64,000 nucleotides of DNA, from positions 1 through 64,000 of the forward strand of contig JAJFFB010000009.1 in assembly GCA_021776925.1 (NCBI GenBank), read 5' to 3'. The notes under the pieces are model-generated. The model worked only from the letters and a program-made list of their open reading frames with translations. It ran no database searches and was not told where the DNA came from. This document shows positions 13,225 to 29,539 of the stretch, piece by piece (positions within the stretch are counted from its first letter, which is position 1; each line of letters starts with the position of its first letter). Made by a program: the position numbers and the translations under genes. This DNA is from Planctomycetota bacterium (GTDB lineage: Bacteria; Planctomycetota; UBA1135).

Positions 13225-14655
13225 ATGAGAATCGGCCCTCAACTGGGCGCAGTCTTGATTGCTGCGCTTCCCATGGCTTCCCCCGTGACCGCCCTTCCCT
13301 TCTCCCCGCAAGGAGAAGAGGAAAGCGCCCTCGGGTACACGCGCGAGTACACCATCCAGGCCGATGCCGCCTGGCTGGAGCCAGGCAAAACCCTGGCCCC
13401 GGCCTACGTCACCATCCGCCAGGGGCGCATCGCCCGTGTGTCGACCCGCCCACCCGGTCCACGCCGCGGTCCCTTCGGCGCCATCGAGCCAACCATCCTC
13501 AAGGTCGAGGGCACCCTCGCCCCGGGCATGGTCGACGCCTGGAGCCGCTTGCTGCCCGCGGACCTGCTCAATGATCGCAATCCGCTGGCCCACGCCGAGG
13601 TCGCCGATTCGTTGCCGTTGCAGCGTCCCGGGGCCGATGCTGCCCTGGCGGCGCGCGTCGGTGCATTGCGCGAACAAGGCCTGGCCGCGGCCTATCTGGC
13701 TGCGGTGGCCGGTGGCGTGCAGCGCGGCGTGGGCAGTGCGGTCGAATTTTCCGTCCATGACCTGCCGGTGGCCTACGCCGAAGGCAAGCTCGAGTTTGCC
13801 CTCAGCGGCGACCGCTTAGGTGCGCAGAGCGCGGCGCGGAAACTCACCGCTGCCTTCGTCGACGCCGAAGCCTGGCGTGAATCACTCGACGACTACCAGG
13901 AAAAGCTGACCAAGTACGAAGAGAGCCTGGAGAAGTACCACAAGGACCTCGACAAGTACATCGAAGAGAAGGAAAAGAAAGAGGCCGAGGAAAGCAGCGA
14001 ACAAGCTCCCGGTCGCTTGCAGGAAGAGTCCGGGGACAAGGACAAGAGCAAGGAAAAGGGCAAGGCCAAGCCCGAGGACAAGGGGCCGAAGATGCCCACC
14101 CGCCCCAAGCGTCCGGTCGAGCCACGCCCGAGCACGGTGCGCAACCTGATCCTCGACGTCCTCGACGGCAAACGCGGGGTGCGCGTCGTCGCCGATGACC
14201 GTAGCGCGATCGAGGCGGTGATCGCGCTCCACGACGAATACGACCTGGAACCGGTGCTGGTCGGCGGCGCCGAAGCCGACCTGCTCGCCGAAGAACTCGC
14301 CGATGCCGAAATCCCGGTGGTGCTGGCACTGCGCGCCGATCCGGCCGTCGGCGGCCAGCGCACCCTGGTGCAGCGCTACAACACCTTGATCGAGGCCGGC
14401 GTGGTCGTTGCCCTCGCCTCCGGCGGCAGCGATGGCTCCGCCGCGATGATGCTGACCCTGGCCGGCGAACTGATCGCCGCCGGCGCCGACGCCGAGCAGG
14501 TCTGGGCTTCGTTGACCACGGTGCCGGCCGGCCTGTGCGGGCTAGGTCAGCGCAATGGTCGTATTGCTTCCGGCCACAGCGGTTCCATGATCCTGTTCCA
14601 AGGCAGTTCGCCTTTCGACGCCTCGGCGTCCTTCCGTACCCACAAGCCCAAGTAG
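13225..14655 (+). CDS. Exported amidohydrolase-like protein 1, metal site lost
   Basis: First gene of a nine-gene array. 476 residues; the ATG at 13225 is chosen because it opens a signal peptide (MRIGPQLGAVLIAALPMASP). Residues ~45-110 match the N-terminal beta-sandwich of the amidohydrolase superfamily (ITIRQGRIARVST-like, then GTLAPGMVDAW). Where active members have D-A-H-x-H the sequence reads D-A-W106-S-R108, so both metal-binding histidines are missing. Residues ~223-296 are an extremely charged Lys/Glu insertion, predicted coiled coil. The C-terminus (LCGLGQRNGRIASGHSGSMI) matches the family's returning beta-sandwich strand. The fold call is solid; catalytic activity by the normal mechanism is unlikely. 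Twelve bases separate it from the next gene. Confidence 0.78.
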   Translation: MRIGPQLGAVLIAALPMASPVTALPFSPQGEEESALGYTREYTIQADAAWLEPGKTLAPAYVTIRQGRIARVSTRPPGPRRGPFGAIEPTILKVEGTLAPGMVDAWSRLLPADLLNDRNPLAHAEVADSLPLQRPGADAALAARVGALREQGLAAAYLAAVAGGVQRGVGSAVEFSVHDLPVAYAEGKLEFALSGDRLGAQSAARKLTAAFVDAEAWRESLDDYQEKLTKYEESLEKYHKDLDKYIEEKEKKEAEESSEQAPGRLQEESGDKDKSKEKGKAKPEDKGPKMPTRPKRPVEPRPSTVRNLILDVLDGKRGVRVVADDRSAIEAVIALHDEYDLEPVLVGGAEADLLAEELADAEIPVVLALRADPAVGGQRTLVQRYNTLIEAGVVVALASGGSDGSAAMMLTLAGELIAAGADAEQVWASLTTVPAGLCGLGQRNGRIASGHSGSMILFQGSSPFDASASFRTHKPK

Positions 14656-14667
14656 CCGGAGCCCATC

Positions 14668-15756
14668 ATGATCTGTGCAAGTCTGCTTCTGCTCGCCGCT
14701 CAGGGCGCCACCGCCGAGGAAACCCCGGCCTGGGTCCTGGCGCCGACCGCCGTGGTGATGGCCGATGGCCGCAGTGAGAGCGGGGTCGAAATCCTCGTCC
14801 AAGGCGAGCGCATCGTCGCCGTCGGCAAGGACCTCAATGTGCCCGCCGGCGCCCACCGCGTGCCGCTTAGCGGCGTCCTTGCGCCGGGCATGGTCGACGC
14901 CTTTTCGGCCTTTGGCGGTGCCGCTCCGGCGCGCGAGGATTCGCGACGTCTCACGCCGATGCTGCACGCCGCCGACTCGATCAATCTGCGCGAAGATCCG
15001 ACCTGGAAGCGGCTGCGCGCTTCCGGCGTGACCTCGATCCACGTCCTGCCGGCCGCGCGCAACGTGCAATCCGGCTGGGGCACCCTGGTGACCACCGGCG
15101 GCAGTGATCGCAGCCTGGCCACGCGCACCCGGCAACTGCTGTCGCTGCACTCGCAGACCTTCGATGGGGGCACCGGCCCGAGTTCCATGACCGGGGCCAT
15201 CGAGGTGTTGGAACAGGGCAACACCACCGGCATTCCCGGCCTGGAGACCCAGGGCGCGATCGTGCTGGTGGACAGCGCCGAAAGCGTGCGCGCCACGCGC
15301 CGCATTCTCGGCCACACCCCTCTGTTCTGGATGCTCTCCGGCGATCCCGCCAGCTACGCCGGCGCCCTGCGCGGCGAGCTTGTCGGCCTGCCGATGACCC
15401 AGGACAGTGGCTTCAGCCCGCGCAATCTCGACACCCTGAAGCGCCTGCACGACGCCGGCGTGCGCGTCTGTTTCGGGACTGCTGCGGGTTCCAGCCGTGG
15501 TCCCGAGGATCTGCGCCGCGCCGCCATCGCCTTCGCTCGTGCCACCGGCGACCCGGCGGCGGCCTGGGCTGCGGTTTCCACCGCGGCGGCCGAATACGCC
15601 GGCACCGGCAAGGTCGGCAGCATCGGTGCCGGCCAACGCGCCGACCTGGTTCTGTGGAGCGCCCATCCGCTCGACGCCAGTGCGCGAGTACAGGCGGTGC
15701 TGATCGGCGGCGAAACCGTCTACCGGGCCGCGGCCCTACCGGAGGAAGAGAAATGA
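14668..15756 (+). CDS. Exported amidohydrolase-like protein 2, metal site lost
   Basis: 362 residues, short for the superfamily. Signal peptide of about 18 residues without any basic residue (MICASLLLLAAQGATAEE). The N-terminal sandwich is intact (VVMADGRSESGVEILVQGER, VLAPGMVDAFSAFGG), but the HxH positions are F and A. The middle segment (GVTSIHVLPAARNVQSGWGT) is family-like. The C-terminus has AGTGKVGSIGAGQRADLVLW and a final VQAVLIGGETVYR strand, the usual composite domain closure. Its TGA overlaps the ATG of the next gene by four bases. Probably a non-catalytic or non-metal member of the array. Confidence 0.8.
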   Translation: MICASLLLLAAQGATAEETPAWVLAPTAVVMADGRSESGVEILVQGERIVAVGKDLNVPAGAHRVPLSGVLAPGMVDAFSAFGGAAPAREDSRRLTPMLHAADSINLREDPTWKRLRASGVTSIHVLPAARNVQSGWGTLVTTGGSDRSLATRTRQLLSLHSQTFDGGTGPSSMTGAIEVLEQGNTTGIPGLETQGAIVLVDSAESVRATRRILGHTPLFWMLSGDPASYAGALRGELVGLPMTQDSGFSPRNLDTLKRLHDAGVRVCFGTAAGSSRGPEDLRRAAIAFARATGDPAAAWAAVSTAAAEYAGTGKVGSIGAGQRADLVLWSAHPLDASARVQAVLIGGETVYRAAALPEEEK

Positions 15757-17342
15757 TCTCCAGCCTGATTCTGACCACCCTGGCCGCGCCTGCCGCGGCC
15801 CTGCCCCAGGCCGATGCGCCGACCGCGATTGCCGTAGACCGTCTCCACGTCGGCGACGGCAAGGTCCTCGAAAACGCCGTCATTCTGCTGCAGGACGGGC
15901 GCATCCGTTCGGTGGCCCAGGGCGCTGCGCCATCGGGCGCGCTGCACGTCGACGGCGCCGAACTCACCCCGGGCCTGGTCGACGCCTATTCCCTGATGGG
16001 GGTGGGCAGCAACACCGTCGAGGAATCGCGCGAGACCACCGCCGGCATGCCGCTGCTGCAGGCGCTGCGCCTCGACCATCCTTCCTTCCGCCGCGCTGCG
16101 GAACAGGGTGTGACCACCGCCTTTCTCACCCCGGACTCGCTCAACGCCTTCGGCGGTCTCGCCGCAGTGGTCAAGACCCAGGGCGGCGAACCGGCCGACC
16201 TCTACGCTGAGCCGGGCAGCGCCGCGCAGGTGCTCAACGCGGCCGCGGCGCTGAAGATCAGCCTCGGCAACGACGTTGCCTACCGCAACCACGCACCGCG
16301 GCGCAATCCGAGCGATTACTTCTCGCGCCGGCCGACCACGCGCATGGGCACGGTGTGGACGTTGCGCCGCGATTTCTACCGCGCCGCCACCTACGCACAG
16401 CAGCGCGCGCGCGGCGAGGTCGAGGCCGACGCCGACCTCGACGCCATCGCCAAGGTCCTCAGCGGGGAACTGCCGCTGCGCATCCACGCGCGGCGCAACA
16501 ACGACATCCAGACCGCGCTGCGCCTGGCCGAAGAGTTCCAGCTCAAACAGGTGACGATGGAAGAAGCCACCGAGGGGCACAAAGCCGCGGCCCTGCTCGC
16601 CGCCGCCGGGGTACGCGTGGTCGCCGGTCCCGGCTACGACGACCTGCAGCGCTCGATCGCGCGCGGTCCCAGCATCGCCGATCTGCGCATGGTGCTGGAC
16701 CCGCCGGTGGTCTGCTGCGAAGACCTGCACGACGAAAGCTTCCTCGCCGAGATGGCGTGCCGTGATCCCTTCTGCAAGCAGGTGGTGCGCGGCGCCGACC
16801 AGCCGGCCGCGCTCTACCACGAAGCCGAGCGCAATGAATTCGGCATGGCGGTCGATCCCGATGACCCAGGTCCCGGGCACGACCACGACCAAAGCGTGGT
16901 CGACCCGGCCACCGGCCTGGTGCAGCCCAAGGGTCTGGCACTCGACCTTCTGACCTTGTTCCAGCCGCGTTATGCCACCGGCCTCAACATCGGCCGCCGT
17001 GGCGAAGGCGACACCTCCACTCCTGCGCTGCCCGCGATTCTGCACGCCGCCGGCGTCCACGCCGCGCTGGGCAGCGCCGAGGCGCACGACCAGCCGCTCA
17101 GCGAAAGCAGCCTGATCCACCAGGCGCGCCTGGCGGTGCGTTATGGGCTCGACCCGCAAAGCGCGCTGTCGATGGTGACTTCCCACGCCGCCGTGAGCTG
17201 CGGCATGGGCGAGCGTGTCGGCCGTGTGGCCGCCGGGCTCGATGCCGACCTCGTGCTGTGGTCGGGGGATCCACTGGATCCCGCCTCCCGTCCTCTCCTC
17301 GTCCTCATCGACGGTCGCATCGCCGTCGACAACCGCAACTGA
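15753..17342 (+). CDS. Exported amidohydrolase-like protein 3, HxH lost
   Basis: 529 residues. The ATG at 15753 lies in an ATGA overlap and has a strong GGAGGAAGAG ribosome site, which decides the start over longer in-frame options. Signal peptide MISSLILTTLAAPAAALPQ, again with no basic residue. HxH is replaced by Y-x-L (LTPGLVDAYSLMG). It does keep a later histidine block PLRIHARRNNDIQTALRLAE and EEATEGHKAAALL, which in active relatives includes barrel metal ligands, so part of the site survives. C-terminal closure CGMGERVGRVAAGLDADLVL and VLIDGRIAVDN is normal. An internal loop (VDPDDPGPGHDHDQ) is His/Asp-rich. 22 bases to the next gene. Confidence 0.8.
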   Translation: MISSLILTTLAAPAAALPQADAPTAIAVDRLHVGDGKVLENAVILLQDGRIRSVAQGAAPSGALHVDGAELTPGLVDAYSLMGVGSNTVEESRETTAGMPLLQALRLDHPSFRRAAEQGVTTAFLTPDSLNAFGGLAAVVKTQGGEPADLYAEPGSAAQVLNAAAALKISLGNDVAYRNHAPRRNPSDYFSRRPTTRMGTVWTLRRDFYRAATYAQQRARGEVEADADLDAIAKVLSGELPLRIHARRNNDIQTALRLAEEFQLKQVTMEEATEGHKAAALLAAAGVRVVAGPGYDDLQRSIARGPSIADLRMVLDPPVVCCEDLHDESFLAEMACRDPFCKQVVRGADQPAALYHEAERNEFGMAVDPDDPGPGHDHDQSVVDPATGLVQPKGLALDLLTLFQPRYATGLNIGRRGEGDTSTPALPAILHAAGVHAALGSAEAHDQPLSESSLIHQARLAVRYGLDPQSALSMVTSHAAVSCGMGERVGRVAAGLDADLVLWSGDPLDPASRPLLVLIDGRIAVDNRN

Positions 17343-17364
17343 TCCGACCTCGCCCATTCCTTCC

Positions 17365-18717
17365 ATGCGCACAGCAGCATTGATTCTTCCCGTTCTGGCC
17401 TTGTCCACGGCCCTCGCCCCTGCCCAAGAAGGCAGCGTCGCGGTGCGCGCAGGCAAGGTCCTGACCGGTACCGGACAGGTGATCGAAAACGGCACCGTGG
17501 TGGTCGAAGGTGGCCGCATCGTTGCCGTCGGCGGCCCCGACCTCGAGGTGCCCTTCGACACCCTGTTGCGGGAATACCCAGATGGGGTCCTGTTCACCGG
17601 CTTCGCCGAGGCCCACACCTCCAGCGGCGTCGACCGCGCCAACGAGAACGTGCCGGTGGCGCCGTTCCTCGACGTGCGCGATTCGATCGACCCGGTCAGC
17701 TTCTTCTACGAGAACGAACTGCGCGGCGGAGTGACCGCGCTGGGCGTGATCCCGGGCAACAACTGCGTCATCGGCGGCCAAGGCAGGGTGCTCGCTCCCG
17801 CGGGAATGACCGTCGAAGAAATGACGCTCTCTTCCTATATGGGCATGAAGGTCGCCATCGGTCCCAAGTTTGGTTGGAGCCGCAGCGCCCAGCTGGCCGA
17901 ACTGCGCGAAGCCGAGACCGCCCTGGTCGAAGCGCTGAAGCGGACTGGCCAGACACTGCTCGACAAGGAGCAGGCCAGCGCCGACGCGCGCCGCGCCGGC
18001 GAGGAGCAGCCCGGGCCCGCCGAGGATCACGACGATCTCGACAGCGCCGGCGGCTTCATCCAGTTCGGCGAAGACTTCCCCGGCAAGGCGCTGATCTCCG
18101 AAGAAGACGTCGACGAGATCCAGCGTGGTCTGGTGCGCATCCTCAACGGCGACGAACGGCTGTGGCTGTCCTGCCCGGGTCCGACCGACGTGATGCACGG
18201 TCTCGACTGGGCGCGCGACCACGGTCTGCTGGAGCAGTGCGTTTTTGTGGTTTCGTCCGCCGCTCATGAAGCCGCCGACCTGCTCGCCGAGAGCGGTCGT
18301 CCAGTGGCCCTGGTGGGTGGTCTCTTCCACGTCGAGAACGACCCGGTGACCGGCAAAGAAAAACGCACCTTCGCGCCCACGGTCCTGGCCGAGGCCGGGG
18401 TCACCTTTGCGATCGGCTCCGAGAAGGGCCGCATGGGTCCTGATCGGCTCGCCTACCAGGCAGCGACCTGCGTGCGCGAGGGCATGAGCCGCGAGCAAGC
18501 GCTGGCGCTGGTCACCACCGCTCCCGCCGTGCTGTGGGGTCAGGAGGGTCAACTCGGAGTGTTGGCCAAGGGCGCCCTCGGCAACATGGTCCTGCTGGAC
18601 GGCGATCCGTTGGCGATCTCAAGCAAGGTGCTCAAGGTCTGGGTCAAGGGCCGCGAGGTCTACGACCGCGATCAAGATGAACGGCTGCAAGGCCTGCTCG
18701 AAGGGGGAGTCAAGTGA
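17365..18717 (+). CDS. Exported amidohydrolase-like protein 4, half of HxH kept
   Basis: 450 residues; the ATG at 17365 opens the signal peptide MRTAALILPVLALSTALAPA. Family strands VRAGKVLTGTGQVIENGTVV and GGRIVAVGGPDLEVP are clear. The metal motif region reads FAEAHTSSG: the first histidine is present, the second is Ser. The later TDAP-type aspartate motif of active members reads GSEKGRMGPDRLAYQAA instead. The end VLAKGALGNMVLLDGDPL and KVWVKGREVYD is typical. The TGA overlaps the GTG start of the next gene (GTGA). Catalysis by the standard metal mechanism is doubtful. Confidence 0.8.
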   Translation: MRTAALILPVLALSTALAPAQEGSVAVRAGKVLTGTGQVIENGTVVVEGGRIVAVGGPDLEVPFDTLLREYPDGVLFTGFAEAHTSSGVDRANENVPVAPFLDVRDSIDPVSFFYENELRGGVTALGVIPGNNCVIGGQGRVLAPAGMTVEEMTLSSYMGMKVAIGPKFGWSRSAQLAELREAETALVEALKRTGQTLLDKEQASADARRAGEEQPGPAEDHDDLDSAGGFIQFGEDFPGKALISEEDVDEIQRGLVRILNGDERLWLSCPGPTDVMHGLDWARDHGLLEQCVFVVSSAAHEAADLLAESGRPVALVGGLFHVENDPVTGKEKRTFAPTVLAEAGVTFAIGSEKGRMGPDRLAYQAATCVREGMSREQALALVTTAPAVLWGQEGQLGVLAKGALGNMVLLDGDPLAISSKVLKVWVKGREVYDRDQDERLQGLLEGGVK

Positions 18718-21575
18718 AACGCGTTCTTCCGGCCCTGGTCCTGCTCGGCCTGGCCGCACCTCTGGTGTCGGCGGCGGCCAGTGGGGCGCTCGCGCGGAGC
18801 GCGCCACCGTCCGCCCAGGAAGGCGGCCTGGTGGCCTATCGCGCGGCCACGATCTACCAGTCTGAACAAGCTCACCACAACGCCACTCTGCTGGTCCGCG
18901 ATGGCAAGGTCGAGGCTTTGCTGAAGCAGGGCGAAGCCCTGCCGCCGCTGGTCCCGGTGGTCGACTTCGGCTCCGCGGTGCTGATGCCTGGCCTGGTCGC
19001 CGCCGACGCGCCGATGACCGGCAGCGGCAACCAGGGCGACCGCTCGATGGGCGCCGACCGGCGTGCCTTCGATGACTACGACCCCTACGCCGACATGGAT
19101 ACGGTGCTCGAACGCGGGGTCACCACCTACTACCTGTCGCCCGACCGCCGGCGCCTGGTTGGCGGGCGCGGTGCGGTAGTCAAGAGTGCCGGCACCCAGC
19201 GGGTGCTGCGCGAGGTTTCGGACCTGCGCGTGTCGCTCGAGCCGTCGGCTTACAACCCGCCGGCCTACTTCCGCCCGCCGATTCCACCGACCTCCGAGAA
19301 CCCGATCCGCCCGGCGCAGGTGCAGGCGCCGCAATCCCGCGCCGGAGCGCTGATGGCCCTGCGCGAGAGCATCACCGCCGCGCGCTGGGGCAGCGGCGAC
19401 GCCCACACCAAGGCGCTGGCCGAGTTCCTGGCCGAGCGCGCGCCGCTGCGGGTGGCCGCGCGCAGTCATGGCGAGATCCAGGGCGCGCTTGAACTGGCGC
19501 GCGCGATGGGCGCTTCGCTGCTGGTGGACGGCGGCGAAGAAGTCGCCGAACTGGCACACGAACTGGCTGCCGCCAAGGCCAGCCTGATCTTCCATCCGCC
19601 GCTGTTCACCAGCCTGCCCTCCTTTGGCAGCGATTGGCAGCCTCCCGCCGCCGACAGTCTGCGCAAGCTGCGCGACGCCGGCGTCGCGGTGGCCTTGGCT
19701 CCGGGCGCCGAAGGGCGCTGGACCTGGCTGCTGGAATCGGCCGCCGCTTCGATGGCCTACGGCCTCAAAGAAGGCGAAGCGCTCGTCGGCGTGACCGAAG
19801 CCGCGGCCGCGGCTCTCGGCGTCGCCGACCGCGTCGGCAGTCTGGGGCCCGGCCGCGACGCCGATTTCCTGGTCCTGGATGGCGCCCCGCTCGACCCCGC
19901 CACCTCGGTGCGCGAAGTCTTCATCAACGGCGTCCGCGTGTGGCAACGCGACCGCGACGGCCGCGGCGCCGCGGTGGTGCTGCGCGCCGGAACGGTGTGG
20001 ACTGGTCAGGGGCAGCCGATCACCGGGGGTGCCGAGGTCCTGCTCAAAGACGGCAAGGTCGTCGCCGCCGGCAAAAGCGTGCCGCATCCGGCGGGTGCAC
20101 GATTGGTCGATGCCGGCCCACACGCTCACATCACGCCCGGATTCATCGACGCGCGCAGCACCTACGGCCTCGGCCGCACGGTCGACGCCGAGGCGATCCT
20201 GGGCCTGATCGGCAGCGGTTCGGTGCAGAATCCCGGCTGGCGCCAGCAGGCGCGCAATGGGGTGACCACGGTGGTCGTTGCGCCGGCCTCGGTGAGCAAG
20301 ACCGGCACCCTGGGGGCGGCGGTCAAGACCGCCGCGCAGGGCAGCGCAGGCGCCTACGTCGATGGCCGTGAAATCGTGCTCATCGACATGCGCACCAATG
20401 ATCTGCTCGACCTCGATAAGCGCTTCGACGACGTGTTGAAGAAGGGCAAGAAGTACTTCGACACCTGGGAGAAGTACCGCGCCGACCGCGCCAAGTGGGA
20501 AGAGGAACAACGCGGCAAACAGGCCGACGCGCGCGCCGAACGCGAGGCCGCGTTGCGCGAGCGGTTGGCCAAGGGCGCTGCACCCGAACCCGAAAAGGCA
20601 GAGGTCGCCGAGGAAGAGGCCGAAGAGAGCACCGAGGAGGCCCCGGTCGAAGCCGAGGCAGATCCGCTCAACGGCCTGTGGGAAGGCACCATCGTCCACG
20701 AAATGCTGCCTGAACCGGTGTCCTTGACCGCGCGACTGGTGCACGAGGGCAGCAAGCTGACCGGGATCTTCTCCAGCCCGATGGCGCCCGGCGAAGAGGC
20801 CGAACTGGAGGGCACCTGGAATGCCTCGACCAAGACCGCGCACTTCGAGATTCCGACCGAGGTCGGCACCGCGACGATCAGCGGCAAGGTCGACGCCCCC
20901 GATCACATGGCGGTGCACGCCGAACTGGCCGGAATCGGATCGGTCGATTTCGAGATGAGTCGCACCGAAGCAGACGCCGGCGGGGTGGTGGTTCAGGTCC
21001 AGCGCAAGAAAAAGGAGAAGGGGCCGCAGGAACCGCGCAAGGACGCGCGCCAGGAAGGCATGCGCGCGCTCTTCGAGGGCCGCGCCACCGCTTTGGTCTA
21101 TGCCAACCAGGCCGAGGTCATCCGCGCGGCGGTCGGCGCCTTCGAGGCGCACAAGCTGCCGATGACGCTGGTCGCCAGCAACGACGCGCTCGAGGTCGCC
21201 GACCTGTTGCGCGACAAGGGCATCGGCGTGGTGGCGCCGACCTCGCTGGTGGTGCGCGAGGACGGGGTTGATTTCGCCCCCGCGGCGCGTCTGCACGAAG
21301 CCGGTCTGACCACCGCCTTCCAATCCGGCGGCGGGGGCGGCGCAGCGATGCTGCCGCGCGCGCTGGCGATGGCCACCCGCTACGGCCTCGGCGCTGAACA
21401 GGCGCTGCAGGCCATGACTTCCGGCGCCGCGCAGCTGCTCGGCCTGCAGGACCGCGTCGGCAGTCTGCGTCCCGGTCTCGACGGCGATGCCGTGATTCTC
21501 GACGGTCCGCCATTCGACCTGCGTACGCGGGTCCTCCACGTGTTCGTCAACGGCCACGAGGTGCCGCAGGAATGA
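18714..21575 (+). CDS. Exported tandem fusion of two amidohydrolase-like modules with charged and beta-domain insertions
   Basis: 953 residues from a GTG that overlaps the previous stop. Signal peptide MKRVLPALVLLGLAAPLVSA. Module A (~40-410) has VLMPGLVAADAPMTG in place of the HxH strand and its own closure VGSLGPGRDADFLVLDG. Module B starts near residue 420 (LRAGTVWTGQGQPITGGAEV, ITPGFIDARSTYG), again without HxH, and closes with VGSLRPGLDGDAVILDG. Module B is interrupted at ~572-650 by a Lys/Glu-rich coiled coil and then at ~652-755 by a small beta domain (NGLWEGTIVHEM, KLTGIFSSPM, ATISGKVDAPDH) that looks lipocalin-like. So one polypeptide carries two metal-less modules. It overlaps the next gene by ATGA. 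Function unknown; a scaffold or binding role is my inference. Confidence 0.8.
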   Translation: MKRVLPALVLLGLAAPLVSAAASGALARSAPPSAQEGGLVAYRAATIYQSEQAHHNATLLVRDGKVEALLKQGEALPPLVPVVDFGSAVLMPGLVAADAPMTGSGNQGDRSMGADRRAFDDYDPYADMDTVLERGVTTYYLSPDRRRLVGGRGAVVKSAGTQRVLREVSDLRVSLEPSAYNPPAYFRPPIPPTSENPIRPAQVQAPQSRAGALMALRESITAARWGSGDAHTKALAEFLAERAPLRVAARSHGEIQGALELARAMGASLLVDGGEEVAELAHELAAAKASLIFHPPLFTSLPSFGSDWQPPAADSLRKLRDAGVAVALAPGAEGRWTWLLESAAASMAYGLKEGEALVGVTEAAAAALGVADRVGSLGPGRDADFLVLDGAPLDPATSVREVFINGVRVWQRDRDGRGAAVVLRAGTVWTGQGQPITGGAEVLLKDGKVVAAGKSVPHPAGARLVDAGPHAHITPGFIDARSTYGLGRTVDAEAILGLIGSGSVQNPGWRQQARNGVTTVVVAPASVSKTGTLGAAVKTAAQGSAGAYVDGREIVLIDMRTNDLLDLDKRFDDVLKKGKKYFDTWEKYRADRAKWEEEQRGKQADARAEREAALRERLAKGAAPEPEKAEVAEEEAEESTEEAPVEAEADPLNGLWEGTIVHEMLPEPVSLTARLVHEGSKLTGIFSSPMAPGEEAELEGTWNASTKTAHFEIPTEVGTATISGKVDAPDHMAVHAELAGIGSVDFEMSRTEADAGGVVVQVQRKKKEKGPQEPRKDARQEGMRALFEGRATALVYANQAEVIRAAVGAFEAHKLPMTLVASNDALEVADLLRDKGIGVVAPTSLVVREDGVDFAPAARLHEAGLTTAFQSGGGGGAAMLPRALAMATRYGLGAEQALQAMTSGAAQLLGLQDRVGSLRPGLDGDAVILDGPPFDLRTRVLHVFVNGHEVPQE

Positions 21576-22843
21576 TTTCGACCGTCACCTTCCTTCTGGC
21601 CGCGCTCGCACCGGCCGCCGCTGCCCCAGCTCAGGTCGCAGCCGTGGCTCCGCAAGCGCAGCCTGCCGCAACCGAGTCCGCGCTCCCCGAAGGCTTGCGG
21701 GTGCTGACCGCTGCCAAGGTCTTCACTGCAGCCGAAGGCGACATGATCAACAACGGTGCGGTGGTGGTGCGGGGCAGTCGCATCGAGTGGGTGGGACGCG
21801 CCGTCGACCTGCCCGCGTTTGACGGGGCCGTGCACGTCGACCTCGGCGATCTGTGGCTGGCTCCGGGCGCGGTCGAGGCGCACAACCACGTCGCCGGATC
21901 GTTGCGCGACCTCAACGACACCGTCTACCTGACCAATCCGGCGATGCAGACCCACGCGGTGCTGGAGCCGCGCAATCCCTACCTGCTCGACGCGGTGGCG
22001 GGCGGCATCACCTCGGCACTTTTCATTCCGGGGTCGGGCAGCAACATGGGTGGTTTCGGCATGCTGGTCAAGACCAGTTCCGACACCGTCGAAGAGATGG
22101 TGGTGCGCAACCCGGGTTCGCTCAAGATCGCGCAGGCCGGCAACCCCGAGCGCTACGGCTTCGGCGTGGCGCGCATGCTGATGAACTGGAACACCCGCGA
22201 CACCCTGAAGAAGGGCATGGAGTGGGTGCGCGCCTACCGCGCCGGTGAGGTGCCGTGGGATCCGAAGTGGGCCAACTTCGAGGGTCTGGTCGACCACACC
22301 GTGCCGGTCTCGGTGCACACCCAGATCTACCAGGTGGTGATGCAGACGATCCTGATGCAGAAAAAGGAGCTCGGTCTGGCACCCTTCATCGACCATGGCA
22401 CCTTCGACGGTTTCAAGACCGGGCCGCTGGCGGTGCAATACGACGTGCCGGTGATGAACGGACCGCGTCAGTTCTGGTTCGACCGCACGCGCGCGCGCAT
22501 CCAGGGCAACGCCGCCGGCTGGTTCGAACACGTCAAGGACGGGCTGCTGCTCGGTTACAACACCGATGCACCGGTGATCCCGCAAGAGGAACTGCCCTAT
22601 CAGGCGGCAATGGGCGTGCGCCTCGGTGCCGGCACCAGTCGCGACGGCCTGCTCGGCATCACCTCGCACCCGGCCCGCGCGCTGCTGATGGACGACATCG
22701 CCGGCTCCTTGCAAAAGGGGCTCGAAGCCGATCTGGTCGCCTGGACCGGCAACCCGATCGATCCGCGTTCGCACGTCGAAAAGGTGTGGGTGCGCGGTGA
22801 GCTGGTCTACGACCTGTCCCGCGGAGACCAAAGGCGCTACTAG
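21572..22843 (+). CDS. Exported amidohydrolase family protein 6, metal site intact
   Basis: 423 residues. Signal peptide MISTVTFLLAALAPAAAAPA, no basic residue. This member keeps the metal site: His104 and His106 in EAHNH, His249 in VSVHTQI, His275 in FIDHGTFDG and Asp332 in YNTDAPVIP, the pattern of imidazolonepropionase/prolidase-like amidohydrolases. It also has the closure AGSLQKGLEADLVAWTGNPIDP. It is therefore one of only two likely active enzymes in the array. Substrate cannot be read from the sequence; related exported enzymes hydrolyse cyclic amides or dipeptides. ATGA overlap with the upstream fusion gene; six bases before the next, also intact, paralogue. Confidence 0.85.
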   Translation: MISTVTFLLAALAPAAAAPAQVAAVAPQAQPAATESALPEGLRVLTAAKVFTAAEGDMINNGAVVVRGSRIEWVGRAVDLPAFDGAVHVDLGDLWLAPGAVEAHNHVAGSLRDLNDTVYLTNPAMQTHAVLEPRNPYLLDAVAGGITSALFIPGSGSNMGGFGMLVKTSSDTVEEMVVRNPGSLKIAQAGNPERYGFGVARMLMNWNTRDTLKKGMEWVRAYRAGEVPWDPKWANFEGLVDHTVPVSVHTQIYQVVMQTILMQKKELGLAPFIDHGTFDGFKTGPLAVQYDVPVMNGPRQFWFDRTRARIQGNAAGWFEHVKDGLLLGYNTDAPVIPQEELPYQAAMGVRLGAGTSRDGLLGITSHPARALLMDDIAGSLQKGLEADLVAWTGNPIDPRSHVEKVWVRGELVYDLSRGDQRRY

Positions 22844-22849
22844 CCGGCG

Positions 22850-24043
22850 ATGATCACGCTCCTCCTCGGCCTCGCCTGCACCCCCCAGACCGCTCCCGCA
22901 GCGGACACCGTCATCGACGTGGGGGTGGCGATGCCGATGAGCAACCGCGAGGTCATCCACAACGCGCGCATCCTGGTGCGTGACGGCAAGATCGTGCGCG
23001 TCGGCCGGCGCCAGGACGTGCCCTTGCCGGCGAACTATCAGCACTATTCCTACCCCGACGCCTTCGCCTTCCCCGGCGCCGTCGACCTGCACTCGCACAG
23101 CCAGACGGGAACTTGGGAAGACATCAACGACATGGTCCATCCGGACAACCCGGAACTGCGCGTGCTCGACACCGTGCGGCCATGGAATCCGATGTACCGC
23201 GACGCCAGCGCCGGCGGTGTGACCACCGTCAACGCGATCCCCGGCTCGGGCACCAACTTGTCCGGCGCCGGCGTGCTGGTCAAGCTGATGCCCGCCGAAG
23301 ACGACATCGATCGCGCCATCCTGCGTCATCCTGGTTCGGTCAAGGTCGCCCAGGGTTACAACCCCGAGCGCTCCGGCGATCTGGGCGGTACGCGCATGGG
23401 CATGTGGTGGATGCTGCGCTGGTATCTGGCGCGCGCGCGCGAGGTCTCGGAAGCCGACACTCTCGAACAGAATCCCGATCTCGCCCACATCGCGCAGATC
23501 GAACGGCGCCACCACCCTTACCTGGTGCACACCGCCGGGGCGCGCGACACCTATGGCACGGTGCGCATGTTCCTGCTCGAGGCGGGGCTGCCGGTGGTGG
23601 TCAGCCATGCCTCCTTCCACGGCTACCTGGCCGGTGAAGCGATCGCCAAGACCGGTGCGTCGCTCAACGTCGGCCCGCGCAATTTCGACGCCACCTTCAA
23701 CGGCATGGGCCAGGTGCGTGGTCTGGTCGAAGCCTACGAGAGCAGCGGCAACACCGACATCTCGGTGCAGACCGATGCTCCTGTGGTGCCGCCCGAAGAA
23801 TTCATCTACCAGGCCACCCTGGCGGAGCGGCACGGCTGCACCACCTGGACTGCCCTGGCCTCGATCAACGCCGTACCGGCCCGCCAGATTCTGGCCGAGG
23901 ACCGCATCGGCACCCTGCAACCCGGCCTCGACGCCGACATCGTCATCAAGGCCGGCCAGCCGCTCGACCCCCGCAGCCCGGTGCTGCTGGTGTTCGTGAA
24001 CGGCGAAGTCGTCTACGACATCCAAGACGGACAGCGATACTGA
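22850..24043 (+). CDS. Exported amidohydrolase family protein 7, metal site intact
   Basis: 397 residues, the closest paralogue of the preceding gene. Very short N-terminal hydrophobic leader (MITLLLGLACTPQTAPAADT) with no basic residue and no proper lipobox. Full metal site: His81 and His83 in DLHSH, His227 in YLVHTAG, His253 in VVSHASFHG and Asp309 in QTDAPVVPPEE. Family strands NARILVRDGKIVRVG and closure IGTLQPGLDADIVIKAG are present. Together with gene 6 it may form an active homologous pair or heteromer. Three bases to the next gene. Confidence 0.85.
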   Translation: MITLLLGLACTPQTAPAADTVIDVGVAMPMSNREVIHNARILVRDGKIVRVGRRQDVPLPANYQHYSYPDAFAFPGAVDLHSHSQTGTWEDINDMVHPDNPELRVLDTVRPWNPMYRDASAGGVTTVNAIPGSGTNLSGAGVLVKLMPAEDDIDRAILRHPGSVKVAQGYNPERSGDLGGTRMGMWWMLRWYLARAREVSEADTLEQNPDLAHIAQIERRHHPYLVHTAGARDTYGTVRMFLLEAGLPVVVSHASFHGYLAGEAIAKTGASLNVGPRNFDATFNGMGQVRGLVEAYESSGNTDISVQTDAPVVPPEEFIYQATLAERHGCTTWTALASINAVPARQILAEDRIGTLQPGLDADIVIKAGQPLDPRSPVLLVFVNGEVVYDIQDGQRY

Positions 24044-24046
24044 CCC

Positions 24047-25456
24047 ATGCTTGCTGAACTCCTGCTCGCCGCACTTCCCGCCGCCCTGCCTCAGGACGGC
24101 GCCGACCCGCCGGTCGGCCGGGCCACGGTCTACCGCCTGGATTCCATCGAAACCCTGGATGGCAAGGTCCTGACCAACGCCACCATCCTGGTGCGCGAAG
24201 GCGTGATCGAGCGCATCGGCCAGGCGGTGGTGATCCCGGATCACGCGCGCGTCTATGACCTGCGTGGAAGCGGGTCGGTGGCGATGCCGCCGCTGGTCCT
24301 CGGCCAGGCCGGCATGCTGCGTCAGACCACCAGCGGTGGCGGCCTGCGCGGCAAGATCAAGGGCATCGACCATCTGCAGATCAGCCAGGATCAGATGGCC
24401 GACCTGCGCGAGATCGGCGTGTTGCTGCTCGGCGTCGAGCCTGGCGGCAGCGGCATCCCCGGGCGCACCTCGGTGCTGCGCACCGATGCCGAAGCGCCCA
24501 TCGACGCGCTGGTCCACGACCTGCACCTGAAGATGACTCTGGACATCAGCAAGTCGTCCAAGGATCTGCTGCGCAAGGCGCTGAAAGACGCCGACGCAGC
24601 GATCGACAAAGAGGCCAAGGCCAAGGCCGATTGGGAAAAGGCGCGCAAGGAATGGGCCGAGAAGCAGAAGGCGGCCAAGGAAGGTGGCAAGGAAGAGAAG
24701 CCGGCCGACAAGGTCGAAAAGGACAGCGGCAAAGAAAGCTCGTCCGGCCGTGGCCGCGGAGCCGCTCTGCGCCAGGAGCCCGAACAGGAAAAGGGCAAGG
24801 ACGGCGACAACAAGGGCAAGGAGCAGGAAAAGGGCCCGCCCGAGACCTTTGAGCCGCCCAAGATCGATCCCAATCTGCAGCCGGTGGTCGAGTGGGTGCG
24901 GCACCAGCGCATGGTCCAGGTACGCCTGGACAACGCCGGCGAATGGCTGCACTGGCTCGACGTGATCGGCAAGCGCGAACTTCCATGGGAGGTCGTGCTG
25001 GTGCACGGTGGCTCGACCAATCTGGCCGAGGTGGTCGACGACCTGGTCGCTCACCAGGTGCGCATCCACGTGCCTGCACGGATCTCGACCCTGCCGAGCA
25101 CGCGCATCCAGCAGAACCTGCCGGCGCTGCTGGCGCGGGCTGGCGCCGAAAGGATCGTCCTCACCCCGACCAGTTCGGGTTCGATCAACGCCGCCAAGGA
25201 CCTGCGGGTCTTGCTTGCCGACGTAGTGCGCGAGGGTCTCGACCGCAGCGTTGCCCTGCGCGCGGTCAGCGTCGAGGCCGCCGCCGCACTCGGACAGGAA
25301 GACCTGGTCGCGCCGCTGGCCGCCGGCGCCCCCGCAAGTTTCATCATCCTCGATGGTGATCCGCTCGACCCCCAAGCCCGCGTGACCCACCTGGTGGCCG
25401 CAGGCGAAATCCTCTACGACCGCAAGAAAGCCGAAGCCGCGGAGAACCGGGAATGA
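24047..25456 (+). CDS. Exported amidohydrolase-like protein 8, metal site lost, charged insertion
   Basis: 469 residues. Hydrophobic leader MLAELLLAALPAALPQDG, without a basic residue. N-terminal sandwich strands LTNATILVREGVIERIG and MPPLVLGQAGML; the HxH positions are Q and G. Residues ~171-268 are a long Lys/Glu/Asp-rich insertion (for example KAKADWEKARKEWAEKQK), predicted coiled coil, in the same barrel region as the insertions of genes 1 and 5. It shares a segment with genes 6 and 7 around KGIDHLQISQDQM and ends with LVAPLAAGAPASFIILDGDP. ATGA overlap with the next gene. Confidence 0.78.
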   Translation: MLAELLLAALPAALPQDGADPPVGRATVYRLDSIETLDGKVLTNATILVREGVIERIGQAVVIPDHARVYDLRGSGSVAMPPLVLGQAGMLRQTTSGGGLRGKIKGIDHLQISQDQMADLREIGVLLLGVEPGGSGIPGRTSVLRTDAEAPIDALVHDLHLKMTLDISKSSKDLLRKALKDADAAIDKEAKAKADWEKARKEWAEKQKAAKEGGKEEKPADKVEKDSGKESSSGRGRGAALRQEPEQEKGKDGDNKGKEQEKGPPETFEPPKIDPNLQPVVEWVRHQRMVQVRLDNAGEWLHWLDVIGKRELPWEVVLVHGGSTNLAEVVDDLVAHQVRIHVPARISTLPSTRIQQNLPALLARAGAERIVLTPTSSGSINAAKDLRVLLADVVREGLDRSVALRAVSVEAAAALGQEDLVAPLAAGAPASFIILDGDPLDPQARVTHLVAAGEILYDRKKAEAAENRE

Positions 25457-26889
25457 TCCTCTCCACCCTCTCTAGTCTGCTGCTGACCCTTTGCGCGGCG
25501 GCGCCTGCTGGCGCCGAGGCTGGCCTCGCCGAAGTCTGCACCCCTGGAAACGCCTGGCTGGCCCAGGATCCGCCCGCCGAGGAACAGGGCGCCGAATCCG
25601 AACAAGAAGAAGCCGCAGAGGCGGGCGAAAGCGCAGAGCCCGAAGCCGATCCAGAGCCCAATCCCTACCTCGCCATCGTCGGCGGAGAGGTGCACACCGT
25701 CACCGGCGGGGTATTGGCGCGCGCCACCGTGCTGTGCAAGAGCGGGCGCATCCTCAAGATCGGTCCGCGGGTGCGCATCCCCGAAGGCGCCGAGATTCTC
25801 GACGCGCACGGCATGCGCGTGTATCCGGGCCTGGTTGCGGTCGAGTCCTTCGGCATCCTGCGCGGCCGCGGGCCGAGCATCGCCGACTCCTTCGACCCCT
25901 TCGCGCTCAACGTCGATCTGGGGCTGGCCGGTGGCCTGACCACGGTCCAGACCGGCGATGCCATCGCCAAACTGACCCGCGGCACCCTCGACGGACATCT
26001 GCTGGCCACCGCCCCCTGGACCAGTCTGAGCTATGGCAGCACCTCGCCGAGTGCGCGGCGCAAGCTGCGCCAGCGTCTGGAAGGGGCGCAGGAATACCTG
26101 CGCAAGGTGCGCGAGGTCGAGATCGCCAAGCAGCTCGGCGAGAAGGACACCCCCGACGTCGAAACCAAGGGTGTCGACATGGAGGCGGTCAAGCTCCTGA
26201 AAGGCGAAAAGACCGCACGCTTCCGCGCCAACAGCGCCAAGGATCTGCTCGCGATCTGCGATCTGCTGGAGAGTTACCCGATGCGTTCGGTGATCTTCGG
26301 TGGCCGCGAGGCCTGGACTCTGGCACCACGTCTGAGCCGCGCCGGTGCGCGCCTGGTGATCACGCCGCGGGCCAAGTCCTGGGCCGATGACCGCCTCAAC
26401 CGCCCCAATGGCTGGAGCATCGAAAACGGCCGCGTGCTATGGGACACCGGCGTCGAGTTTGCGATCCTCCCGGGACAGACCTCGATCAGCCTCGGTGGCC
26501 TGGCCGGTCGCGACCTGTTGACCCTGCCGATGGAAGTGGCTTTTGCCATTCGCGGCGGGCTCAACCAGGATGCCGCACTGCGCTCGATCACCCTGGATGC
26601 CGCGCGCATCCTTGGAGTGTCCGACCGCATCGGCAGCCTTGAAGTCGGCAAGGATGCCGACCTGATCATCACCGACGGCGATCTCTTCGACTACCGCACC
26701 TTCGTGCAGTGGGCGGTGGTCAACGGCCGCATCGCCTACGACAAGCAACAGGCCTCCTACTTCGCGCACATCCGCCCGCGCCCCGAAGCCACCGCCGAAG
26801 AAGTTGCCGCCGAGATCGCTGACGCCTTGATCAAGGCCGGTGCCGCCGACGACGGGGGCGAAGGAGGCGAAGGCGACGGGCCACGCTGA
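25453..26889 (+). CDS. Exported amidohydrolase-like protein 9, metal site lost
   Basis: 478 residues, last gene of the array. Signal peptide MILSTLSSLLLTLCAAAPAG, no basic residue, followed by an acidic low-complexity linker at ~38-72. Sandwich strands IVGGEVHTVTGGVLARATVL and closure IGSLEVGKDADLIITDGD are clear. The HxH strand reads VYPGLVAVESFGIL, so both histidines are gone (E and F). Other family segments remain (GLTTVQTGDAIAKLTRG, AFAIRGGLNQDAALRSIT). The C-terminal ~35 residues are Ala/Glu/Gly-rich. A 111-base gap follows, so the operon probably ends here or weakens. Confidence 0.8.
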   Translation: MILSTLSSLLLTLCAAAPAGAEAGLAEVCTPGNAWLAQDPPAEEQGAESEQEEAAEAGESAEPEADPEPNPYLAIVGGEVHTVTGGVLARATVLCKSGRILKIGPRVRIPEGAEILDAHGMRVYPGLVAVESFGILRGRGPSIADSFDPFALNVDLGLAGGLTTVQTGDAIAKLTRGTLDGHLLATAPWTSLSYGSTSPSARRKLRQRLEGAQEYLRKVREVEIAKQLGEKDTPDVETKGVDMEAVKLLKGEKTARFRANSAKDLLAICDLLESYPMRSVIFGGREAWTLAPRLSRAGARLVITPRAKSWADDRLNRPNGWSIENGRVLWDTGVEFAILPGQTSISLGGLAGRDLLTLPMEVAFAIRGGLNQDAALRSITLDAARILGVSDRIGSLEVGKDADLIITDGDLFDYRTFVQWAVVNGRIAYDKQQASYFAHIRPRPEATAEEVAAEIADALIKAGAADDGGEGGEGDGPR

Positions 26890-28588: not shown

Positions 28589-29539
28589 ATGCGATGCCCT
28601 CGTCCTGCCGTTTCCCTCGCCGCCTTGCTGGCGGTAGGGGGGTGCGCCGTCGGTGGCCCAGATGAGGCAGATCCGGTTTCCAGCCTCGAAATCTCGGCAC
28701 CAGGCTCGGATCTGCACTTCAGCCGCATCGAGTCGCCTGAGGTCCATCGCCTGCTGCAACTGGATGAGCAGCTCTACAGCGGCGCCGAGCCCAAGACCGA
28801 GGCCGCCTTCGCCGCGCTGCAAGACTTGGGCATCCGCACGGTGGTCAGCGTCGATGGCGCCCGGCCCAAGGTCGACCTCGCCTCCCGCTATGGCATGGAC
28901 TACGTCCAGATTCCGATCGGTTACGACGGGATCAGCCAGGAACAAGCCTGGGCCATGGTTCATGTGGTGCGCGCGCGTCCCGGTCCCTATTACTTCCACT
29001 GTCATCATGGTCGCCACCGCGGGCCGGCTGCTGCGGCGATCGCCCTGCGGGCACTGACCGGGGCCGACGCCTCTGCGGGCAGCGAGGTGCTGCTCACCGC
29101 CGGGACCAGCGAGAACTATCCCGGCCTGTGGCGCGACGTCGAGGCCTTCCAATTGCCCCCAGCCGGTGCGCTCCTGCCCGAATTGGTTGCTGTTGCAACG
29201 ATTTCCGACCTGGCTTCTGGCATGGCCAGCATGGATCGTACCTGGGACCAGATGAAAGAGATCCAGGCCGCGGAATGGGCCAGCTCAGCGGCGCACCCTG
29301 ACCTGGATCCGCACCAGGTGGCACTGATCCTGCGCCAGGCCTTCGAAGCCGTGCGGGATTCGGCCGAGCCCGATCTGGCCGGGCAAGAGGCCTTCCGCGA
29401 CGACCTGGAGCTCGGCCTGGAGGCCTCCGCTCTGCTCGAGGAGGCCCTCAGCGAGGGCAATCAGGAAGCCGCCGCCGCTGCCTATGCCGACGTGGCGCGG
29501 TCGTGCAAGTCCTGCCATAGCGAATACCGCAACGGCTGA
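28589..29539 (+). CDS. Lipoprotein fusing a cysteine phosphatase domain to a cytochrome c'-like heme domain
   Basis: 316 residues. N-terminal lipoprotein signal with lipobox LLAVGGC (Cys19). Residues ~40-190 are a dual-specificity/tyrosine phosphatase-like domain: LYSGAEPKTEAAFAALQDLG, IRTVVSVDGARPKVD, and the signature CX5R as C138-H-H-G-R-H-R144, with the flanking YYFHC strand. Residues ~200-316 are all-helical and end with C306-K-S-C309-H310 followed by EYR, the position and spacing of the heme site in cytochrome c' or c556-type four-helix bundles. Both domains would lie outside the cytoplasm, where c-type heme is attached. Similar phosphatase domains are found in exported planctomycete proteins, but the heme partner is striking. 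Activity and substrate unknown. Confidence 0.75.
   Translation: MRCPRPAVSLAALLAVGGCAVGGPDEADPVSSLEISAPGSDLHFSRIESPEVHRLLQLDEQLYSGAEPKTEAAFAALQDLGIRTVVSVDGARPKVDLASRYGMDYVQIPIGYDGISQEQAWAMVHVVRARPGPYYFHCHHGRHRGPAAAAIALRALTGADASAGSEVLLTAGTSENYPGLWRDVEAFQLPPAGALLPELVAVATISDLASGMASMDRTWDQMKEIQAAEWASSAAHPDLDPHQVALILRQAFEAVRDSAEPDLAGQEAFRDDLELGLEASALLEEALSEGNQEAAAAAYADVARSCKSCHSEYRNG

Follow-up and report, generated by a model that had tools for sequence, protein, structure and literature searches.

A conserved planctomycete operon of amidohydrolase-like paralogues with leader peptides, most of them without a metal site

The window analysed here is a stretch of 64,000 nucleotides from a Planctomycetota bacterium (GenBank assembly GCA_021776925.1, contig JAJFFB010000009.1, positions 1 to 64,000), whose genome comprises 4.59 Mb in 203 contigs and is 87% complete. 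At 13225-26889, nine plus-strand genes, which we call g1 to g9, encode ten amidohydrolase modules, each gene opening with a hydrophobic leader sequence (Table 1). From g1 to g9, the distances between consecutive genes are +12, -4, +22, -4, -4, +6, +3 and -4 bases. A preliminary description of this DNA had placed nine genes and ten modules in this interval, with leaders, beta-1 triplets and closely spaced junctions, including four 4-base overlaps, and we reproduced all of these exactly. By a hydropathy test, 93-99% of the orthologues of g2 to g9 have leaders, a figure biased towards a positive answer because starts were partly chosen by hydropathy. Judged by these leaders, the products of the operon are likely exported, to the periplasm or the surface. 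A scan for promoters and terminators gave nothing above chance, and the only RNA element found in the window is one tRNA. Elsewhere in the window, positions 28589-29539 encode an N-terminal phosphatase-like motif (HCHHGRHRG) and a C-terminal cytochrome c' domain (PF01322).

Table 1. Genes, modules and inserts of the operon, in window coordinates.
Feature	Position	Strand	Beta-1 triplet	Description
g1	13225..14655	+	WSR	predicted exported, amidohydrolase-like pseudo-module without metal ligands
g1 insert	13813..14001	+		one helix of 63 residues (197-259) following beta-4, then charged linker (AlphaFold2)
g2	14668..15756	+	FSA	predicted exported pseudo-module
g3	15753..17342	+	YSL	predicted exported pseudo-module; beta-4 Lys retained
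g4	17365..18717	+	HTS	predicted exported pseudo-module; first His and beta-4 Lys retained
g5	18714..21575	+		predicted exported two-module fusion, GTG start; neither module with metal ligands
g5a	18714..19958 (boundary approximate)	+	DAP	first module of g5
g5b	19959..21575 (boundary approximate)	+	RST	second module of g5
g5b insert	20412..20972	+		53-residue helix (567-619) and eight-stranded beta domain (654-753)
g6	21572..22843	+	HNH	predicted exported catalytic module; ligands H104, H106, K185, H249, H275, D332
g7	22850..24043	+	HSH	predicted exported; second, lineage-specific catalytic module with ligands H81, H83, K165, H227, H253, D309
g8	24047..25456	+	QAG	predicted exported pseudo-module with charged insert
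g9	25453..26889	+	ESF	predicted exported pseudo-module; final gene of the operon

Pfam recognizes g2 to g9 through the C-terminal part of PF01979/PF07969 only. The window's g1 has no match, and PF01979 is matched by 28 of 36 members of the g1 family; in profile-profile comparison, g1 is homologous over 377 columns (E 2.9e-33), and the alignments of the modules to g6 each span 351-392 columns, with probabilities of 99.9-100%. All modules have the fold of the amidohydrolase superfamily, a beta-sandwich with a (beta/alpha)8 barrel. AlphaFold2 predicts intact barrels for both g1 (pLDDT 87, pTM 0.82) and g5 (pLDDT 87.9, pTM 0.68, a value that makes it less certain how its two modules lie relative to each other), and the best Foldseek match of either model is 3ooq (E 1.6e-22 for g1 and 4.6e-27 for g5). 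Most g1 orthologues carry a long, charged segment at the place of the insert, and the eight-stranded domain of g5b carries an invariant G-x-W and has no Pfam match. Reading the reaction from curated families was abandoned, as no module attains any NCBIfam cut-off: g6 scores 64.9 bits against a cut-off of 500 for Xaa-Pro dipeptidase of the Caulobacter type (NF051886), with the other modules lower, and 36.7 bits against 298 for imidazolonepropionase (TIGR01224).

All 132 copies of g6 have the full set of six metal ligands (HxH, K, H, H, D), as do 41 of 45 copies of g7, three of the other four being cut off within the site. With HxH on beta-1, Lys on beta-4, His on beta-5, His on beta-6 and Asp on beta-8, the ligand set of g6 and g7 is that of binuclear sites with a carboxylated lysine, and 3ooq shows an identical set when aligned with g6. 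The preliminary description had HxH lost from eight of the ten modules. The loss holds well beyond the window: not one copy of g1, g2, g3, g4, g5a, g5b, g8 or g9 has the full set or qualifies as catalytic in type. Profile alignment and column counts found no relocated or replacement ligands in the metal-less modules, which rules out the reading, raised at the outset, that the ligands are displaced but present elsewhere. Remnants of the site persist. In g4, the beta-4 Lys is kept in 87 of 92 copies and the first His in 78 of 92. Many copies of g3 still have Lys, most of g8 have Asp, and some of g5b have HxH but nothing else of the set. The combination of HxH and beta-4 Lys is limited to the g2 of three distant relatives (L076, L078 and L196). 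In these three, the two later His are gone, as if the metal site had been lost later than in other modules.

The array is common to many planctomycetes and is not peculiar to the window's genome. A search with g6 found a match in 61 of 61 genomes from the window's family and order, and 40 stretches around g6 matches repeat both the gene set and its order, except where contig ends cut them. When one genome for each species of bacteria and archaea was scanned with a g6 profile, 80 further loci emerged, again collinear, many of them labelled Phycisphaerae, Pirellulales, Planctomycetia or plain Planctomycetota. Coverage beyond Planctomycetota comes from these 80 best g6-profile matches; the majority carry a planctomycete label, some are called just 'bacterium', and a single one is assigned to Bacillota. 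The Bacillota record (L158) has an eight-gene array and reflects either mislabelling or transfer. The array was found in 16 of 20 extra stretches drawn phylum-wide, and the order agrees in ten additional stretches, including single-contig and other 99%-complete genomes. Each of the 151 genomes sampled from the window's class has a g4 match, and 100 of 394 Planctomycetota genomes have a g6 match at E <= 1e-90. The array is missing from some near-complete genomes; G414, a 99%-complete genome from another class that consists of a single contig, carries it.

Across 135 loci, 106 of them distinct, the gene order g1-g2-g3-g4-g5-(g6)n-(g7)-g8-g9 is never violated, and 71 of the distinct loci carry a complete array from g1 to g9. 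All junctions are short gaps or overlaps, with medians of -4 to +18 bases, and in the relatives examined the genes are neither scattered nor degraded nor frameshifted. As the order is fixed in 106 distinct loci and the full ligand set never occurs in the eight metal-less modules, chance is excluded. Flanking genes vary by lineage, which indicates that the gene set is self-contained; conserved partner genes were therefore dropped as a clue to function. Plasmid carriage was also rejected, the only matches being weak and partial.

The complete arrays (n = 71) contain zero to four g6 genes and zero or one g7 gene each, always at least one catalytic gene in total, and the commonest form (37 of 71) has eight genes, with one g6 and no g7. 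A single catalytic gene is thus the likely ancestral state, and the window's two are a feature of its lineage. Two active enzymes, as first described, are correct for the window but not in general, with one in the commonest form and up to five at some loci. Because the number of catalytic copies varies between arrays, no single fixed stoichiometry is implied.

All genes of the operon are under strong purifying selection. Between close pairs, dN/dS is about 0.02-0.16 in every gene, usually lower for g6; it rises to 0.2 in more distant pairs and to 0.17-0.46 in the faster-evolving pair L203/L204. These values rule out pseudogene decay. They also count, together with the occurrence of the array in many families and its fixed order, against the view that the tandem duplication is recent and its copies are drifting into decay; a row of tandem paralogues with lost active sites is what such a history would leave, but the reading is refuted and we give it practically no credence. 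Intact frames, the absence of moved ligands, dN/dS mostly at about 0.02-0.2 and a phylum-wide fixed order instead bear out the earlier proposal that the metal-less modules were selected for a non-catalytic job.

The catalytic module has the lowest dN/dS in several pairs and the most invariant columns. If the products formed an extended surface lattice or filament, as the leaders on all of them, the long helices inserted into g1 and g5b and the structural role open to metal-free amidohydrolase-fold proteins (CRMPs) might lead one to think, the activity of g6 and g7 would be secondary. That is hard to reconcile with a catalytic module that comes first or nearly first in conservation, and a Pfam scan shows no sorting or anchoring domain; we consider a lattice very improbable.

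Near-invariant polar residues number 33 in g6 and 32 in g7. An intermediate group follows with 17 in g4, the best conserved of the non-catalytic modules, 16 in g9 and 14 in g3, and a sparse group with 9 in g5b, 7 in g5a, 3 in g1 and 2 each in g2 and g8. So few invariant polar residues are as expected for subunits without a reaction, and by this measure the sparse group behaves like a scaffold. The 14-17 residues of g3, g4 and g9 exceed the apparent need of a bare scaffold, and some of these three modules may bind a ligand, hold the catalytic subunit or have another activity. Taken further, the same residues, along with the beta-4 Lys and first His retained in g4, could mean that some modules, chiefly these three, are enzymes with a new active site, either metal-free or differently placed. 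However, the retained residues do not amount to a complete known catalytic set, replacement ligands are absent from the profile alignment, and the catalytic paralogues have about twice as many conserved polar positions, so that we regard new active sites as distinctly improbable.

Conserved polar residues in g3, g4 and g9 despite loss of the metal set, and the intact barrels modelled for g1 and g5, would also fit a reading in which the metal-less modules are independent periplasmic carriers or sensors that bind ligands such as small peptides or cyclic amides and feed g6 or report substrate, forming no complex. We think this unlikely. The near-invariant polar residues of g1, g2 and g8 are only two or three, the operon has no accompanying receptor, transporter or regulator, and the fixed order and the fusions of neighbours point to contact between the modules.

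These fusions join g1 to g2 in L197, L211 and, by score, probably L198; g4 to g5 in L120 (on the same contig as L191); and g8 to g9 in L196. The modules g5a and g5b form a single gene nearly everywhere. Separate proteins also combine active and metal-less modules. On contig C5 of the window's genome, L209:2226-6722 (plus strand) encodes a 1498-aa protein in which a metal-less module and a G-x-W-type domain are followed by an active module (HSH) and then by another module without a metal site, and a 1493-aa protein from the near-complete genome G198 (L206) has the same layout. A 948-aa protein (L205:9222-12065, plus strand) consists of an active module (HSH) and a metal-less one (YSM); in its single-contig planctomycete genome (G296), a search with g4 finds no array. 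The neighbour fusions and the separate pseudo-active proteins are the main evidence for contact and indicate that the modules probably touch; taken with the structure of the operon, the fusions suggest that the modules of the array are in contact.

Collectively, the fixed order, tight packing, neighbour fusions, pseudo-active fused proteins and leaders favour one exported complex. The model we hold to be probable is an exported, hetero-oligomeric amidohydrolase whose catalytic subunits, one or a few in number, are kept in place by metal-free paralogues dedicated to this role. The catalytic subunits would be g6 and, in the window's lineage, its paralogue g7; g1, g2, g3, g4, g5a, g5b, g8 and g9 would be structural or regulatory subunits, each with a fixed place beside the catalytic ones, and the long helical inserts and the G-x-W beta domain would make additional contacts. 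Such a complex would probably have arisen when a homo-oligomer like 3ooq of Thermotoga maritima duplicated and its copies specialized by position. The reaction could be amide or small-peptide hydrolysis, a guess by analogy with the COG1228 dipeptidases. A more specific version, which we offer tentatively and rate just short of an even call, is a pseudo-symmetric envelope enzyme, with eight position-specific dead paralogues placed around interchangeable live subunits (one to five per array) that set the substrate.

Pseudoenzymes are usually studied singly. Here, as eight dead modules and a live one keep a constant order within one operon throughout the phylum, it can be traced module by module how an enzyme was divided into specialized non-catalytic subunits, and the presence of the array in all sampled genomes of the class and in G414 may make it testable in culture. 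The operon further identifies a large group of proteins that lack a metal site but would receive a plain amidohydrolase annotation.

The nearest solved relative by sequence is 3ooq, an amidohydrolase of T. maritima (E 1.2e-74 with g6 and 9e-58 with g4), which has HxH, K, H, H and D like g6 and is also nearest by fold to g1 and g5. It differs in being a single catalytic protein, with an entry that holds no metal-less partners, and we found no paper on the function of this structural genomics target in the open-licence literature searched. The COG1228 dipeptidases (Cc2672, 3mtw; prolidase, 3feq/3n2c) share the amidohydrolase fold and are among the next-best PDB relatives, but are far more distant from g6 (E 8e-19, with only the two ends aligned); they are not known to need pseudoenzyme partners. 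The CRMP/DPYSL proteins are related to dihydropyrimidinase, have no enzyme activity and form tetramers; unlike the operon's products, they are eukaryotic and cytosolic and have no operon with a catalytic paralogue. An example of a CRMP structure appears in PMC4051505. In the aspartate transcarbamoylase (ATCase) dodecamer of Pseudomonas aeruginosa, according to PMC7053772, an inactive dihydroorotase-like chain is required for activity. A metal-less amidohydrolase-fold subunit is thus needed in that complex, as would be so in the one proposed here; the Pseudomonas enzyme has one type of pseudo-subunit, is cytoplasmic, has an active partner of another fold and involves no paralogous array.

Also comparable are the fused planctomycete proteins L205, L206 and L209, which belong to the same subfamily and unite active and metal-less modules in one chain, L206 and L209 with a G-x-W domain; they are single genes of two or three modules, against an operon of nine genes and ten modules. 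Metal-less amidohydrolase-fold subunits are already known, and in the titles and abstracts of the open-licence literature searched we found no account of an operon that groups eight of them with an active paralogue. Given its wide occurrence, the array is no local oddity. Under the pseudo-symmetric version of the model, a single homo-oligomer would have been divided among many dedicated subunits, a course also taken by the eukaryotic proteasome.
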